A DNA stretch of 21,754 nucleotides from a virus: IMG/VR virus record IMGVR_UViG_3300044622_000057, positions 1 to 21,754 of that record. One strand, given 5' to 3'. Each line of letters begins with the position of its first letter. The first letter of the stretch is position 1. The translations under genes and the position numbers were made by a program. Below are positions 15,850 through 21,754 of the stretch, in pieces. Below the pieces are notes generated by a model. It had not been told where the DNA came from, did not search any database, and saw only the letters and a program-made list of their open reading frames with translations.

Positions 15850-18387
15850 TTACCTTTTGGTTGGTCTTGGGTTTGCCGTCTGTTGACGGCTCTTAGCAAT
15901 GTCAACCCCTAACCGAACGCCCTCGCGTTCTTGTTCTGCCTCCAAGCGTTGTTCAGCTTGGCGGGATTGTTGTCCAGCTTTAAAACCTTCGAGCTGGTAC
16001 TTACCTTGCATCTCTTCTTCCTTGAGCCTGAGCTCATCGGCTTTAGTGGCAGCGTCGATCTGCGTCTTTTGCTGCTTGTTCTGCATATCTTGCTGTTTAA
16101 GAGCAAGCTCGGCTTGAGCCAACTGCATATCGGCCTGCGCCTTTTGCTGTTTAATCTGCAACTCTTGTTGCTTGATCTGCAACTCTTGCTGTTGCATCTG
16201 AAGCACAGGGTCTTGCGCTTGTTGCTGGGCTTGTTGCTGAGCCGCCTGCGCTTGGTTCTGCTGAGTCACTTGCTGAGCCGCTTGAGCCATCATGCCCGAC
16301 AAAGCCACCTCCAACTGAGGCGGGAGCTTCTCGTCTTCTGGCGGCAAAGACATGCCAAGCTGCTGCTCAATCTTCTGACGCATCATGAACCCAACGTGCT
16401 CTGCAACGTGCGCCATAAGCTCGGCCTGCATCTGCGGGGCTTTGGGGTTCTGACCAATCAACTGGGCAATTGTCGGGTCTTGGATCATCGCTGTGTGTAC
16501 AGTGATGTGAGACTGATGGTCTTGGTGCAAGAACGCCTTGACAGGTGAGAGCTTCAGAATGTTCTGGTTCTCAGTCACAGGGTCGGTTGGCCGCATGTCC
16601 TCTTCAAGCGGGATAAGCTTGTCTGCGTTCTTGATACCCAACACCTCCAACATGTTGCGGTGCAACTGCGGCAGGTCATAGATATCTGGAGCCATCTGCG
16701 CCATCTGAATAACGGCTTGGTACTGCACCACACGCTGTGACATGGTGGCCGCATTGGGATCAGACACGGGGATAACGTCTACATGCGCGTAGTCCGACTT
16801 CTTAGCGCGTGGGCCGTCGTCGCCTTCTGGCTCGTATGAGTATGTGTCATCTGTGTAGTCACGGATGATGTCACGCAGAAGCTGCAACTCTTGCTTTAGC
16901 GCGTAGTGCACACGGGCCTGCACAGCCGTCATCACTTTAAGCTGGCGCTCAAGGATGGCAAGCGTAGTTCCCACAGGAGCCTGCGCAGACATGTCGGACA
17001 CTTTCATATCCGCAGTCGCTGCAAAGCGACGGCCTTCGTCTACGATCTTGTCAAGCAGTGCGGCAAGAACCGCTGATGGCTCTTTATATGGCAGGGGCAG
17101 GATGCTGTCACGGATGGTGCCAGAGCCGATGTCTACGTCACGGAATTCACCCGGAGCGATTGGCGTGTCATCTCCCTTGATGCGCAGTCCTCTGGACTTG
17201 AGGCCACCGGGCAAGTTGGACAATGTTCCTGCATCGATGAGCTGGCGCATGATGCTTGTAGCGGATTTAGCAAAGCCTCCGATAAGATGGAACAGCCCGA
17301 AGCCATAAGCTCCAAAGCCCGGAATATACTGGTAGTGCACGAAGTGCTGGCGCTTGAGTTTGAGTGGATCATCTTCGTTCCAATTACGGCGAATAGCCAA
17401 AACATCGTTTGTGCCGCGAATGATTGTCACCACGTACGGAAGCGCGATGCCTGTCGGCTCGTCATCGTCGTCCAAGTCTTCGTGACCCTTGATATCCAAG
17501 TCAACGTGGCACTCAAGGAGCGTGAACCTGTCATCGTTCAGATCACTAAAGCCCGTCTCTTTGTCCTTGGCTTTCTGAATATCACCAACAACTTTGTCTG
17601 GCTCACCCAGTTCTACTTCACAGTAAAACCCTGCTTGCTGCAGTTTCAAAATTTCGTTCTTGGTCTTGCGCATTACGTGCGTGACGCGATAGCAAGTCTG
17701 AATGTCCGATGTGCCGTATGGCAGGATCATGTCTTCCGCAGGAATAAAGATCGATACTTGGCGGCCAAGCGCTGGGTCGTAGTACACCTTCTTAAATGCG
17801 GAGCCTGTGGCTGGCAGTGACCACAGCATGCGCTCATGCTCAGGACGGAACTCAACCATCTTCTCAGTAAGCTGATAGTTCATATCCGCTTCTACACGAG
17901 TAGCCGCTTCTTGCTTTTGCGGTGTCTCTTTACCAAGAATTTTGGTACGCACAGGGCCTTGTGCTGGGAATGTCTCGGTGATTGTCTCTGACTGGAAGCG
18001 CACAACAGCTTCTGTAATCATTGGGTGGAACACACCAGAGGCTCCGTTCCAAGGCTCGGTGCGCTCTTCCATCTGCAAACCCAAGAGCTTTAAGCCTTCT
18101 GTATAGGCTTTCTCCCAGTCCTTGCGGGAGCTCTTATCTTGCTCAATGTCGCTTGCCAAGTCGCTGGCCAGCGTCTCCATAGCACTCTCGTCCATGTACT
18201 CAGCCAAGTTAGCGTCAAAGTCTTCAGCAGACGGCTCGGCTGGCTCAATCTCAATCTCCATACCATCAATGCCAATCTTGACAGCTTCAGGATCAACGAT
18301 CTCGATCTCAATGGCAGACTCGTCCTGCGCCAGTTCTTCAAGTCCTTTTGGCTGTTGGTACAGCGCTTTGTCAATGTTCGTTGCCAT
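15850..18387 (-). CDS. Portal protein with Gln-rich helical C terminus
   Basis: The 845-residue product is the dodecameric portal through which DNA enters and leaves the head. An acidic N terminus (residues about 20-75) is followed by the P22-type portal core: SSRKDWEKAYTEGLKLLG with EERTEPWNGASGVFHPMI at about 85-125, RFQSETITETFPAQGPVRTK at about 130-150 and MLWSLPATGSAFKKVYYDPA at about 185-205. FVHYQYIPGFGAYGFGLFHL lies near 345-365, followed by GGFAKSATSIMRQLIDAGTL and LPGGLKSRGLRIKGDDTPIA. Residues about 690-845 are an unusually Gln/Ala-rich long helix (LQMQQQELQIKQQELQIKQQ and similar heptads), corresponding to the barrel that extends into the head in P22-like portals. AGGAA precedes the ATG. 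The size is within the range of large portals of podoviruses. Confidence 0.93.
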   Translation of the reverse strand: MATNIDKALYQQPKGLEELAQDESAIEIEIVDPEAVKIGIDGMEIEIEPAEPSAEDFDANLAEYMDESAMETLASDLASDIEQDKSSRKDWEKAYTEGLKLLGLQMEERTEPWNGASGVFHPMITEAVVRFQSETITETFPAQGPVRTKILGKETPQKQEAATRVEADMNYQLTEKMVEFRPEHERMLWSLPATGSAFKKVYYDPALGRQVSIFIPAEDMILPYGTSDIQTCYRVTHVMRKTKNEILKLQQAGFYCEVELGEPDKVVGDIQKAKDKETGFSDLNDDRFTLLECHVDLDIKGHEDLDDDDEPTGIALPYVVTIIRGTNDVLAIRRNWNEDDPLKLKRQHFVHYQYIPGFGAYGFGLFHLIGGFAKSATSIMRQLIDAGTLSNLPGGLKSRGLRIKGDDTPIAPGEFRDVDIGSGTIRDSILPLPYKEPSAVLAALLDKIVDEGRRFAATADMKVSDMSAQAPVGTTLAILERQLKVMTAVQARVHYALKQELQLLRDIIRDYTDDTYSYEPEGDDGPRAKKSDYAHVDVIPVSDPNAATMSQRVVQYQAVIQMAQMAPDIYDLPQLHRNMLEVLGIKNADKLIPLEEDMRPTDPVTENQNILKLSPVKAFLHQDHQSHITVHTAMIQDPTIAQLIGQNPKAPQMQAELMAHVAEHVGFMMRQKIEQQLGMSLPPEDEKLPPQLEVALSGMMAQAAQQVTQQNQAQAAQQQAQQQAQDPVLQMQQQELQIKQQELQIKQQKAQADMQLAQAELALKQQDMQNKQQKTQIDAATKADELRLKEEEMQGKYQLEGFKAGQQSRQAEQRLEAEQEREGVRLGVDIAKSRQQTANPRPTKR

Positions 18388-18395
18388 GTGTGTTC

Positions 18396-19937
18396 CTAAT
18401 AGTATGCGTACGACTTGCGGCGGAAGTAGTCAGGGTCATCCTTCGCATCCGTGTTCAAAGTGATAAAACCGCCTTGCCTAAAGCGTAGCAGTGCTTGTGT
18501 GGTCGTGTCCACGAAGTCATCGTGCTCCCCAACTGGGAAAGCCGCCATCTCTTCGATCACTTCTCGTGCCCAGCGTGTGTCTGGTGCCCAGACCATGCCA
18601 GAGGCAAACAAATCAGCCACTGCGTTTAATCGTACCATCTTGTCGTTGCCGCGGCTAGGATTTGTTTCCTGCACGGGGATGTCCATGGCCCGCAGTTCTT
18701 GGATCAGCGGAGCGCCTGCGGCCTTCTTCTCCACGATGAACGCATCTGGCTCCCACTCCTTGTAGTGCTTAAGCGCAACTTCTTTAAGTTCAGGGAACGT
18801 CATGCGGTCTTTAAACGCATCGAGCAAGATAATCTGCGTCGCGTCCTTCTCTTCTTCGTTGAAGAACACGCCCCATGTGGTGCAGGCTGAATAGTCTGAG
18901 TTGTTTTTGGTCTCAAACGCGGTATCCCACGATTGAATGACGTAATCGCACTGCGGTGGGTCTTCAGACTCCCATATTCGCCACATCTTGCGCCCAACGA
19001 TGGCTGAGTTCTCGCTTGTGGGCTGCTGCATGTACTGCGCGTTCCAATATCTAGGCTCAATAGACGCTTTGGTAGCTTTGAGCGCTTCAAGTGGCCACTG
19101 CTCTGGCCACAAGGACTTCTCCGTGTCCTGATCTTCGTTAAGAATGGCTGGAAGCTCCACAATTTCCCATGGAATGGCTTCTGGGTTGCGAGCTTGGTAG
19201 TCAATCAAGCGCCCAGTCAGGTCTAAGAGCGACCATCTGGTCATAATCACAATGATCGCACCACCGGGCATCAAGCGTTGCAAGGGGCCAGTCTGAAACC
19301 AAGACCATGCAGTGTCAAAAGCAAGCCGTGAGTTGGCTTTTACGTCTTGTTCCGAGTGTGGATCGTCAATAACGAACAGATCAGCACCACGACCAGCAAG
19401 AGCGCCCCCGACACCAGCAGCATAGTACTGACCGCCAGCGCTTGTAGACCATTTACCAGCCGCCTTTTGGTCATCTGCCACCATTGTTTGGGGGAAAACT
19501 TCACGATACTCCTCCGATTCAATCAAATTACGCACTCTACGGCCAAAGTCTTCAGACAAACCAGCGGTGTGGGTGCCCATGATGATCTTCTTATTAGGGT
19601 ATTTACCTAGGAAGTACGCAGGGAACAGGTAAGAGCTGAACTCAGACTTACCCATACGTGGCGCGATGTTGATAATCACGCGCTTTTTCTTGCCCTCGAC
19701 CACATCTGTGAAGATTTTGGCCAGCTTCCTGTGGTGCGGCCCAATCTTAAAGCCCGGATAGACGCTCTGAGCGAACCCCAACATGTTTGTTTTGGCCGCC
19801 TGCAAGCTGGCGCGGGCTTCACGCATCTCCAAGTCTTGGAAGAGCTCCATCTTTTCTGCCAACGTCATGTGCGGCAGTGCCTTGGCCATTGCTTCTAGCT
19901 CAAGTTTGCTAAGAGTTGTGAACTTTTTAGTCTTCAT
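18396..19937 (-). CDS. terL: Terminase large subunit
   Basis: This is the packaging ATPase and nuclease. I start it at ATG 19937 (513 residues, MKTKKFTTLSKLELEAMAKA), 11 bases inside the end of the small-subunit gene; an in-frame ATG at 19970 would overlap that gene by 44 bases and adds an unlikely peptide. The Walker A-like motif is NIAPRMGKSE at residues 90-99 with Lys97, Walker B is LFVIDD at 187-192, and the coupling motif MTRW is at 232-235. The C-terminal RNase H-like nuclease has SWDTA at 336-340 (Asp338), IVEKKAAG at 401-408 (Glu403) and EHDDFVD at 471-477. TerL docks on the portal and translocates, then cuts, the DNA. The protein ends FRRKSYAYY. Complete and intact. Confidence 0.95.
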   Translation of the reverse strand: MKTKKFTTLSKLELEAMAKALPHMTLAEKMELFQDLEMREARASLQAAKTNMLGFAQSVYPGFKIGPHHRKLAKIFTDVVEGKKKRVIINIAPRMGKSEFSSYLFPAYFLGKYPNKKIIMGTHTAGLSEDFGRRVRNLIESEEYREVFPQTMVADDQKAAGKWSTSAGGQYYAAGVGGALAGRGADLFVIDDPHSEQDVKANSRLAFDTAWSWFQTGPLQRLMPGGAIIVIMTRWSLLDLTGRLIDYQARNPEAIPWEIVELPAILNEDQDTEKSLWPEQWPLEALKATKASIEPRYWNAQYMQQPTSENSAIVGRKMWRIWESEDPPQCDYVIQSWDTAFETKNNSDYSACTTWGVFFNEEEKDATQIILLDAFKDRMTFPELKEVALKHYKEWEPDAFIVEKKAAGAPLIQELRAMDIPVQETNPSRGNDKMVRLNAVADLFASGMVWAPDTRWAREVIEEMAAFPVGEHDDFVDTTTQALLRFRQGGFITLNTDAKDDPDYFRRKSYAYY

Positions 19938-20505
19938 CTGACTTTTCTTCAGACACATCGACCACATCAATCACGCCCATGAACCTATTGAGCTTGTCTT
20001 TGATCCGTGCTTCAAGCTCTACGTCCGTCATCTCAGTCTTCTTGACCTCGACTCGCTCCGTGAACAGCGCAACTTCCGTGACTTTGCCCAGCATGTCTAG
20101 CGCTTTGAGCCGTATGCGCGCGTCTGGGTGTTTGACTTCTTCAAGAATCTTAGCTACGGCAAAACCGCGCAGTTCTTTGGCCTGCTCCACAAACGCCCAG
20201 TCGTAGGCTGTAAGCATTCCCACCAGATGCTGGACTGCCGCTGGGGTTTTTAAATTAGTTAGCGCTTGTTGTGTATTGCCAACAGGCTGGCCGGTTACAA
20301 GAGATGCAAACGATTTACGAGCCGCGTCTTGTTCCGCCTTGGTCTCAATCGCTTCGTCTTCCAGTTCTAGATTCTTTAGCCACTCAGCCGTTTTGACTTT
20401 GGCGTCGATTATTGTGGTTGGGTCTGCTTTTTCAAAAGACAGTACCTCCGCTGTGGCGTCGACCACCTCTGGATGAAACTCGCCGTGAATAAGATGTTCT
20501 AGCAT
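19927..20505 (-). CDS. terS: Probable terminase small subunit
   Basis: The 192-residue product has an N-terminal helical part (MLEHLIHGEFHPEVVDATAE), a central region AEWLKNLELEDEAIETKAEQ, and a conserved C-terminal half AKILEEVKHPDARIRLKALD followed by MLGKVTEVALFTERVEVKKT and a closing acidic helix. The 'LLE..KHPDA..RLKAL..LGK...V.LFTERVEV' segment is what I recall for small terminase subunits of environmental podoviruses, and the gene lies directly before TerL with an 11-base overlap, the usual terminase pair. The small subunit recognises packaging DNA. The ATG at 20505 has no strong Shine-Dalgarno sequence. It is the first gene of the leftward operon, with a candidate promoter about 50-75 bases upstream. 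Confidence 0.78.
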   Translation of the reverse strand: MLEHLIHGEFHPEVVDATAEVLSFEKADPTTIIDAKVKTAEWLKNLELEDEAIETKAEQDAARKSFASLVTGQPVGNTQQALTNLKTPAAVQHLVGMLTAYDWAFVEQAKELRGFAVAKILEEVKHPDARIRLKALDMLGKVTEVALFTERVEVKKTEMTDVELEARIKDKLNRFMGVIDVVDVSEEKSDED

Positions 20506-20533
20506 TTTGCGTAGGTTAGTGCTGGCGTCGCAC

Positions 20534-20562
20534 TTGTTGCCTCGTTGCAGTTAGTGTACACT
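20534..20562 (+). promoter_or_regulatory. Candidate rightward promoter sharing the palindromic -10
   Basis: TTGTTG (20534-20539) is followed after 17 bases by TACACT (20557-20562). The -10 lies in the palindrome AGTGTACACT, the same element used by the leftward candidate, so the two would compete. A transcript from here would start near 20569 and meet a terminator at 20627-20655. Confidence 0.3.
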
Positions 20563-20582
20563 TCTTTTCGGCAATGGTGCAA
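20553..20582 (-). promoter_or_regulatory. Candidate leftward promoter of the late operon
   Basis: Reading the minus strand, TTGCAC (20582-20577) stands 18 bases from TACACT (20558-20553), with start of transcription expected near 20546, about 40 bases before the small-terminase ATG. Matches to consensus are modest (three of six and four of six). The placement at the head of the operon is the best argument. Confidence 0.4.
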
Positions 20583-20655
20583 ATTTTTTGTTCTGTTGCT
20601 TCTCCTTGAGGATTAGTCCTCCTTGCGCCCCGGCTAAACACCGGGGCTCTTTTTT
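20569..20655 (+). ncRNA. Candidate small RNA complementary to ribosome-binding sites
   Basis: The interval is bounded by a candidate promoter and a clear terminator and holds no open reading frame of note. It includes TTCTCCTTGAG (20600-20610), whose last nine bases are the exact complement of CTCAAGGAG, the leader sequence of all three plus-strand genes to the right (20954-20962, 21473-21481, 21648-21656); the third gene pairs over 11 bases. A hairpin GAGGA/TCCTC follows at about 20608-20621, then the terminator stem. An A/T-rich run sits near the 5' end. The competing reading is that the minus strand carries a stranded ribosome-binding site, but no start codon lies at the right distance. 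Existence is unproven. Confidence 0.3.
20627..20655 (+). terminator. Intrinsic terminator, plus strand
   Basis: GCCCCGG (20627-20633) and CCGGGGC (20641-20647) form a seven-pair GC stem around a seven-base loop CTAAACA, followed by TCTTTTTT. This is a strong rho-independent terminator for rightward transcription. On the minus strand no U tract follows the stem. It is noteworthy because no plus-strand gene lies upstream of it. Confidence 0.85.
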
Positions 20656-20662
20656 ATTGGCC

Positions 20663-20680
20663 ATGTCAAACGTTGGACAT
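20663..20680. promoter_or_regulatory. 18-bp near-perfect palindrome, possible operator
   Basis: ATGTC, A, AACGTT, G, GACAT is self-complementary except for one mismatched pair. Such dyads are typical binding sites for dimeric regulators. It covers the possible -35 TTGGAC (20673-20678) of a weak rightward promoter whose -10 would be TATAGT (20698-20703), although that spacing (19 bases) is long. Confidence 0.4.
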
Positions 20681-20929
20681 TGGTCTTTGAAATTTTTTAT
20701 AGTGGGGTGGGGGGTGGCGTTTTGGCTTTGAGATTTTGAAAAATTGGATTTGCGGGTGAGGAACAGTGTTTATGTCCTACCCATTGTGTCGCTCTATTTT
20801 GGGGGTATGGGGGTATGGTGGGGTCAACGCCATAGCCATTCTGCAGACTTTATTGAAGTTTATTTTCCCCCATACTTTGTAAACTAGAGTTGTCAATGAG
20901 GGAGATCGCCCTCGGAGACACAACAACCA

Positions 20930-20946
20930 ATCGGGGACAAGTCCCC
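20930..20946. repeat. Left copy of a 17-bp inverted repeat, itself palindromic
   Basis: ATCGGGGACAAGTCCCC is repeated in inverted orientation at 21395-21411. Its core GGGGAC/GTCCCC pairs around AA. The bases GGGAGATCG at 20900-20908 also recur in inverted form next to the right copy. It precedes the ribosome-binding site of the 138-residue gene. Confidence 0.75.
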
Positions 20947-20969
20947 AATCAAACTCAAGGAGAGTTACT

Positions 20970-21386
20970 ATGTCAGTATCAACTAGAAGTCATGTCATCG
21001 CCATCAAGTCAGAGAGTGACGCATCTGCGAAAGCGGAGATTGCACGCATTGCGCTTAAGAAGCAACATGGTCGCAAGTCGCACGAGAGTGTTCGTGCATT
21101 GCTTCTGCCTGTGTTCGCTAGCGTGTGGTCAATAGAGCTTGTTGCGGGCGAAGGCTCAGGCTCAGGCAAGCAAGTGCTCGACTCAAGTGCAAGCGGATAT
21201 GAGGCTTGTCGCAAGGCACTTGGTCGCACAGTCACATTCATCTGTGGTGCTCGTGAGAGTAACGCCGTTGAAGTTCCACCCAAGCTGGTCAAGAAGCTCA
21301 CCAACGAGATTATTGACGCAGGCTTAACACAGAAGCAGTTCAATGCATTGCTCACGCAACTGCGTGCATCGGTTTCGTTTCAATAA
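20970..21386 (+). CDS. Hypothetical phage protein of the rightward gene set, 138 residues
   Basis: The product starts MSVSTRSHVIAIKSESDASA, with a basic helical region (AKAEIARIALKKQHGRKSHE) and ALLLPVFASVWSIELVAGEG at about residues 43-62, then a Gly/Ser loop, YEACRKALGRTVTFICGARE at about 76-95 and a C-terminal helix AGLTQKQFNALLTQLRASVSF. The 'VRALLLPVF..VW...V..G ... GYEACRKAL' layout resembles small early-region proteins I recall from environmental phages, with no known function. It is soluble with no enzyme motif. The ATG is preceded by CTCAAGGAG with a seven-base gap. It is bracketed by the two copies of an inverted repeat and is the first gene on the plus strand. The opposite strand also reads open but without a ribosome-binding site. 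Confidence 0.8.
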   Translation: MSVSTRSHVIAIKSESDASAKAEIARIALKKQHGRKSHESVRALLLPVFASVWSIELVAGEGSGSGKQVLDSSASGYEACRKALGRTVTFICGARESNAVEVPPKLVKKLTNEIIDAGLTQKQFNALLTQLRASVSFQ

Positions 21387-21394
21387 TCTCATTC

Positions 21395-21411
21395 GGGGAC
21401 TTGTCCCCGAT
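21395..21411. repeat. Right copy of the 17-bp inverted repeat
   Basis: GGGGACTTGTCCCCGAT is the exact reverse complement of 20930-20946. With its flanks (TCGGGGAC/GTCCCCGA, 21393-21410) it forms a palindrome, and continues into CTCCC so that CGATCTCCC (21408-21416) is the reverse complement of 20900-20908. It begins only six bases after the stop of the 138-residue gene. Confidence 0.75.
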
Positions 21412-21420
21412 CTCCCAGTT

Positions 21421-21447
21421 CACCGCAAGGGCGAGGCTCTTGCGGTG
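21421..21447 (+). terminator. Hairpin after the 138-residue gene, weak terminator or processing site
   Basis: CACCGCAAG (21421-21429) pairs perfectly with CTTGCGGTG (21439-21447) around nine bases (GGCGAGGCT). The sequence after it, TTTCATTCTTTG, is T-rich but interrupted, so termination would be partial. It stands between the 138- and 32-residue genes. Confidence 0.5.
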
Positions 21448-21487
21448 TTTCATTCTTTGTCCAATCAATAATCTCAAGGAGTTCATC

Positions 21488-21586
21488 ATGAGCAAAAGCA
21501 AACTTAATCTCATCAGACAAATCATGTTCCACGCATATCGTGAGGCGTGCCGTAACAAACGCCCCATGTCAATAATCATACGCTAA
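21488..21586 (+). CDS. Tiny basic protein, 32 residues
   Basis: The frame is open from 21401, but I start it at ATG 21488 because CTCAAGGAG lies six bases before it and the upstream part of the frame runs through two hairpins. The 32-residue product reads MSKSKLNLIRQIMFHAYREA then CRNKRPMSIIIR: a basic amphipathic helix with an Arg/Lys-rich end. Such micro-proteins are frequent in phage early regions and may bind host proteins or nucleic acid; no family was recognised. The strong ribosome-binding site, shared with both neighbours, is the best evidence that it is translated. Confidence 0.6.
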   Translation: MSKSKLNLIRQIMFHAYREACRNKRPMSIIIR

Positions 21587-21597
21587 GAGGCAACTCT

Positions 21598-21621
21598 GTA
21601 AGCACAGCGTGCTGTGCTTAC
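21598..21621. other. Perfect 24-bp hairpin between tiny genes
   Basis: GTAAGCACAGC (21598-21608) is the exact reverse complement of GCTGTGCTTAC (21611-21621), separated by two bases, so a ten-pair stem with a four-base loop forms. No U tract follows. A second small stem, GGGC/GCCC, lies at about 21623-21636. A transcript-processing or stability element, or a regulator-binding dyad, is likely. Confidence 0.6.
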
Positions 21622-21661
21622 GGGGCGATCCTGCCCATACAACAACTCTCAAGGAGAAACC

Positions 21662-21754
21662 ATGACACCAACCAAAGTCATCTCACACATCGTGTGCTCA
21701 ATCGCACTCGTCACATCCATCATCGTGGGTTTGTGGTGCATGAACGAATACGGC
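21662..21754 (+). CDS. Partial small membrane protein at the right edge
   Basis: An ATG at 21662 opens a frame that leaves the window after 31 residues. The visible part, MTPTKVISHIVCSIALVTSI then IVGLWCMNEYG, has a short polar start and one hydrophobic segment at about residues 7-26, so an N-terminal membrane anchor or signal sequence is probable. CTCAAGGAG lies five bases before the ATG. The frame remains open at the edge, so its length and function cannot be told. It belongs to the same gene set as the two upstream plus-strand genes. Confidence 0.6.
   Translation, partial: MTPTKVISHIVCSIALVTSIIVGLWCMNEYG

Follow-up and report, generated by a model that had tools for sequence, protein, structure and literature searches.

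A conserved phage small RNA with a seed complementary to ribosome-binding sites across the early gene block: a candidate translational switch

The DNA analysed here, referred to as the window, is a 21.75-kb virus fragment from IMG/VR. Its leftward block codes for terminase subunits, portal, and major head and tail proteins, and begins with a divergent terminase small subunit-like gene (19927-20505, minus strand; PHROG phrog_51, E = 6e-4), next to which lies the gene for the terminase large subunit. The rightward block starts at 20970, and the divergent region of about 20506-20970 forms the boundary between the two. In 60-kb relatives, the rightward block encodes a family A DNA polymerase, an SNF2-type helicase, an amidoligase-like protein and many small genes; in one of them (G002) a leftward protein of ~2,820 aa (41572-50037, minus strand) adjoins this replication block. 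We refer to rightward genes as early or replication genes and to leftward genes as late or structural genes, labels that derive from gene content and strand, not from expression. The phage family is uncultured and known from environmental DNA only. No near DNA match to the window was found among 50,697 phage records, and its terminase large subunit is at most ~52% identical to those of named phages. ARAGORN detected no tRNA in the window.

The divergent region carries on its plus strand a small RNA (sRNA) gene of ~88 nt that lacks an ORF of its own. The original prediction had placed a candidate RNA in a gene-free interval at 20569-20655; an RNA gene is indeed found there, and its extent is better set at ~20568-20656. 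The suspected promoter corresponds to a weak sigma-70-like element on the plus strand (20534-20562), consisting of TTGTTG (20534-20539), a 17-nt spacer and TACACT (20557-20562), which was missed by a consensus scanner and is conserved in relatives together with its spacing; in three of them (L023, L268 and L302) the -10 reads TACAAT. This -10 belongs to the palindrome AGTGTACACT (20553-20562), present as a single copy in all five genomes examined. It reads TACACT on either strand and may provide the sRNA and the terminase block with divergent promoters. At the other end, the anticipated terminator is clear: the stem GCCCCGG/CCGGGGC (20627-20647) is followed by a T run on the plus strand, together forming an intrinsic terminator at 20627-20655. 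Among relatives the stem has widely different sequences and is self-complementary in every one. A promoter-like element and an intrinsic terminator of its own, with no conserved ORF, are the features by which the gene would be classed as a trans-acting sRNA of the bacterial type.

Several neighbouring elements were also noticed. The rightward block has a promoter, TGGACA-N18-TATAGT (20664-20703, plus strand), which reads TTGACA-N17-TATAAT in some relatives. Its -35 is overlapped by the palindrome TGTCAAACGTTGGACA (20664-20679), which relatives conserve as TGTCCAACGTTTGACA together with TTGACA-N17-TATAAT; it resembles an operator at which a regulator from phage or host could bind. In the leader of the terminase small subunit gene (20506-20548, minus strand), GAGG lies ~35-40 nt upstream of the ATG and is separated from it by a hairpin (AGTGC/GCACT, or AGTAC/GTACT in relatives), as if the hairpin brought a distant Shine-Dalgarno (SD) sequence near a start codon without an SD of its own. 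Strong hairpins also precede or separate the first rightward genes, at 20933-20946, 21394-21409, 21421-21447 and 21598-21621 (GGGGACAAGTCCCC; CGGGGACTTGTCCCCG; CACCGCAAGGGCGAGGCTCTTGCGGTG; GTAAGCACAGCGTGCTGTGCTTAC), and are possible processing sites or attenuators. In L061 and L241 an extra hairpin is inserted within the loop of stem 1 of the sRNA with the seed untouched, and upstream of the promoter in L011, L014 and L017 a longer GC-rich hairpin replaces the terminase leader hairpin; these may be mobile palindromic inserts.

The predicted fold of 20567-20656 comprises three stem-loops (-32.6 kcal/mol, z = -4.26). In stem-loop 1 (20570-20600), positions 20570-20576 pair with 20594-20600. Stem-loop 2 (20608-20621) is closed by GAGGA/TCCTC, which in relatives is GAGG/CCTC or GATGG/CCATC; a base pair is gained or lost on both sides, and pairing is kept in 24/24 and 47/47 variants. 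Between two stem-loops UCUCCUU (20601-20607) is left unpaired. It forms part of the segment TTGCTTCTCCTTGA (20596-20609), the seed, which is identical in 71/71 distinct variants while stems and loops vary. The original prediction had assigned specificity to the GAG that flanks the CTCCTT core. This GAG is present; it lies within a stem, however, and is only partly conserved, relatives having TTGA-GG or TTGA-TGG at the flank, and the true invariant unit is therefore TTGCTTCTCCTTGA. The specific unit is TCAAGGAGAAGC(AATG), not merely CTCAAGGAG. A second CTCCTT at 20620-20625 was rejected as a seed, being present in only part of the GAGG-type relatives.

Relatives were collected via the adjacent terminase small subunit (80) and through a second query, and an additional set was fetched with a pattern confined to the promoter region, TTAGTGTACACTTNTTTNCGG, from which the seed was excluded. 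The sRNA is intact in every IMG/VR relative in which the region is covered, amounting to 71 distinct variants with stem 1 in one short and several long forms, and 20 further contigs checked have exactly one copy apiece. Conservation of the interval, which had been put forward as a check on the candidate, thus takes the form of a structured plus-strand RNA whose invariant seed is kept in all 71 variants. A covariance model recovered the sRNA in the window and the long relatives at E = 1.1e-17 or better; in six other phages, DSL-LC04 included, it gave weak matches only (E = 0.05 or worse) and no confident copy. Seven pattern matches in GTDB contigs (bacterial genomes) were dismissed as chance.

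Substitutions in stem 1 identify the strand under conservation. Pairing holds in 493/497 cells on the plus strand versus 309/497 on the minus strand. The changes observed (C-G to U-G, A-U to G-U, U-A to U-G and G-C to G-U) maintain pairing in the plus-strand RNA and break it on the minus strand, and therefore it is the plus-strand RNA that is conserved. On a 21-sequence alignment, 98.0% of stem 1 cells pair, compared with 30-72% for slid versions. Column shuffles of the same alignment do not set the observed two-sided covariation of stem 1 apart. Such shuffling is uninformative here because the changes are one-sided wobbles, and strand asymmetry was used instead; the evidence for stem 1, read from the alignments, accordingly points to a maintained plus-strand helix, not to classical two-sided covariation.

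This asymmetry bears on a reading in which the core is conserved for the minus strand, where TCAAGGAGAAGCAATG would serve as ribosome-binding site (RBS) and start codon for a small leader ORF running leftward, or for a terminase small subunit with an N-terminal extension, and the complement in early leaders would be the same RBS motif on the other strand. In 32/57 distinct variants the minus strand does read SD-AAGCA-ATG, an RBS-like TCAAGGAGAAGCAATG; in 13/57 (L020 among such loci) this frame is an open, in-frame N-terminal extension of the terminase small subunit, and in 9/57 it ends at codon 23, just before that gene. Yet 25/57 variants, the window included, have an exact seed without a minus-strand start codon, and 10 more are out of frame, which leaves no consistent frame across the 57 variants; we therefore rejected minus-strand coding as the cause of conservation. 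Leftward genes otherwise do not use TCAAGGAG, and the T run of the terminator, like the pairing in stem 1, belongs to the plus strand. We consider this reading very unlikely.

The complementarity that had drawn attention to the interval was confirmed in full. CTCCTTGAG at 20602-20610 (plus strand) is the exact complement of CTCAAGGAG, which is present at the RBS of all three plus-strand genes. The predicted target sites are 20954-20962 for the gene at 20970-21386 (ATG 20970), 21473-21481 for the small gene at 21488-21586 (ATG 21488), and 21648-21656 for the gene whose ATG is at 21662, all on the plus strand; the complement extends to 10, 9 and 11 nt, respectively, the first and last values as originally claimed. 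CTCAAGGAGAG at the first of these sites is identical in 23 orthologous leaders. The window holds five copies of CTCAAGGAG, compared with 0.14 expected from dinucleotide shuffles: the three RBSs, the antisense of the sRNA interval itself, and one in the portal region, at 17512, which lies antisense inside the portal gene and was rejected as an RBS. Interaction prediction, another of the checks suggested, gave seed pairing energies of -18 to -20 kcal/mol for the three rightward leaders versus -5 to -14 kcal/mol for late leaders of the window.

Gene calling with a simple script covered the window and ten relatives, and the RNA of each phage was matched against that phage's leaders. The complement of the seed segment, TCAAGGAGAAGCAATG, tiles the RBSs of the rightward DNA-replication gene block: contiguous complements of at least 8, 9 and 10 nt occur in 93, 71 and 52 of 230 rightward leaders, with a maximum of 13, about two thirds of these leaders having no 9-base match. 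Among 226 leftward leaders the corresponding counts are 1, 0 and 0, leaving out two 'leaders' that are antisense of the sRNA itself. Part of every match is expected because the seed core is also the anti-SD core. Shuffling the flanks with the SD core fixed gave means of 32, 9.7 and 2.8 at the three thresholds and maxima of 49, 19 and 9. Since orthologues would otherwise count repeatedly, genomes were also tested one by one, and each of five long genomes exceeds 1000/1000 shuffles at both 9 and 10. No complement of at least 10 bases was found in 293 leaders of T7, P22, MinM2, HTVC027P (part), DSL-LC04 and 023Pt_psg01. Counted without reference to the RNA, the commonest early-leader 10-mer is TCAAGGAGAA, tied with CAAGGAGAAA, and TCAAGGAGAA is the exact complement of the invariant seed core UUCUCCUUGA; the commonest late-leader 8-mer is TAAGGAGT. 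In a family of ~690-aa amidoligase-like proteins, TCAAGGAGAA is identical in 29/29 leaders, with variable bases on both sides. A further group of leaders, that of a DNA helicase included, instead matches the remaining half of the seed segment, GGAGAAGCAATG; the helicase and 134-aa families show GGAGAAGCAA(TG) as their match. The complement in early leaders covers the SD sequence and sometimes the start codon. The conserved seed, unpaired in the predicted fold, is complementary to separately encoded mRNA initiation regions.

The RNA might instead be genuine and directed mainly at host mRNAs with strong SD sites, acting in host shut-off, while early leaders carry TCAAGGAGAA for another reason, for example strong initiation or the spread of one RBS cassette. 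The core UCUCCUU would pair with many purine-rich RBSs, and the RNA is weakly similar to further Rfam sRNA families that contain a CUCCU stretch. Set against this, the leader flanks that match the RNA (TC before, AAGCA after) are not those favoured by the 16S tail, one half of the 16-nt segment is matched by some leaders and the other half by others, and an RNA aimed at the host would, unless this is its purpose, interfere with early phage translation as well. The flanks are not patterned on the 16S tail: only 5/230 early leaders reach 8 bases of complementarity to the extended tail. A mainly host-directed role is thus unlikely.

Covariation between RNA and leaders, which had been proposed as a check, gave a divided answer. 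The variable contact position is the base just beyond the seed, within stem 2, where the RNA has GAGG or GATGG and the leader has C or A before TCAAGGAG. Over all leaders, GATGG-type RNAs face 51 A and 86 C, versus 11 A and 71 C for GAGG-type RNAs (raw p = 1.7e-4); in two gene families A is found in 21/27 versus 0/18 (raw p = 8e-8). The gene trees contain several switches of RNA type. Most independent pairs on them are in agreement or show no difference, and in two families there is a weak tendency in the opposite direction. With relatedness taken into account, the independent pairs are too few for significance and none reaches it. The leaders of the first genes downstream of the promoter are not associated with the RNA type. 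Compensatory change in the core cannot show up because the seed never varies. RNA-target covariation in these alignments is suggestive only.

On the basis of these results, we consider it likely that the phage sRNA pairs in trans with many early leaders and keeps ribosomes off them, while the leftward structural genes escape. The original proposal, in which an RNA acting in trans blocks ribosome binding on the rightward genes collectively, is supported by three comparisons: a structured plus-strand RNA with an invariant seed is conserved; the extended complement is restricted to rightward leaders across whole relatives; and it is absent from late leaders and from other phages. These are features of the sequence, from which we infer repression itself as well as transcription of the RNA, its trans action on many mRNAs and its production as late expression starts. 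Transcription would begin from the promoter-like element and end at the intrinsic terminator, exposing the anti-RBS seed between two stem-loops. The seed would then base-pair with the translation initiation regions of many rightward genes sharing the TCAAGGAGAAGCAATG-type leader and block ribosome binding on early mRNAs by occlusion, whereas the structural genes with their different leader, TAAGGAGT, would escape. The RNA might be made as late expression starts, possibly fired together with the divergent terminase block; this timing is suggested by the palindromic -10 AGTGTACACT, which may be shared with a divergent promoter of that block.

Pairing could have a different outcome, as sRNA-mRNA pairing can stabilise messages: the RNA might activate or stabilise early mRNAs, or act solely in cis, on the terminase leader to which it is antisense. 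A leftward transcript, if it started upstream of the sRNA gene, would have a 5' part perfectly antisense to the sRNA. Pairing here, however, spans the SD site itself and reaches the start codon in some leaders, an arrangement standard for repression, and the initiation region of the terminase gene itself holds no notable complement to the sRNA. We consider activation or a purely cis role very unlikely. Repression of early leaders in trans being the preferred reading, whether this one sRNA serves as a global early-to-late translational switch, with the whole early regulon tagged by an extended RBS and late genes untagged, is an evenly balanced question. If so, one RNA and a leader shared across a regulon would make a simple, RNA-only temporal switch, and the extended SD code would predict from sequence which genes of uncultured phages shut off together.

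In the stretches scanned, no Rfam family reached its gathering threshold. Three families of a size similar to the candidate sRNA scored far below theirs: the Betaproteobacteria toxic small RNA RF02278 (14.9 and 16.1 bits versus 50), PsrR1 (RF02701; 27.8 versus 42) and anti-hemB (RF02837; 16.6-22.1 versus 49.5). In the PsrR1 alignment the candidate is matched with a CUCCU stretch left unpaired and with a terminator hairpin. Most phage sRNAs described in the open-access literature are directed at a single phage gene or at host targets, and we found no report there of a phage sRNA that targets a shared early RBS. The P22 sar and P1/P7 c4 RNAs pair at the translation start of a phage gene and block its translation (PMC12197685). 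Their target is a single antirepressor gene in a temperate phage, whereas the candidate would act in trans on many genes through a conserved seed; no antirepressor was recognised here, and the complement is spread over many rightward leaders. The lambda PreS and VP882 VpdS RNAs resemble the candidate in being phage-encoded and trans-acting (PMC12197685). Both depend on Hfq use, and the targets described for them are host genes or sRNAs, or a mixture (PMC12197685); no shared RBS of the phage's own early regulon is reported there as a target of either. In T4, RegA occupies the translation initiation regions of ~30 mRNAs and so silences them, and RegB inactivates early messages at the SD sequence by cutting GGAG in their leaders (PMC3014915). 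RegA and RegB are proteins, whereas the factor proposed here is a base-pairing RNA with a regulon marked by a shared extended RBS. The likeness to RegA would lie in one phage factor acting on the initiation regions of many early mRNAs. The complement is present at 9 nt or more in 71 of the 230 rightward leaders, and the sRNA, if it represses them, would most likely be an RNA counterpart of T4 RegA.
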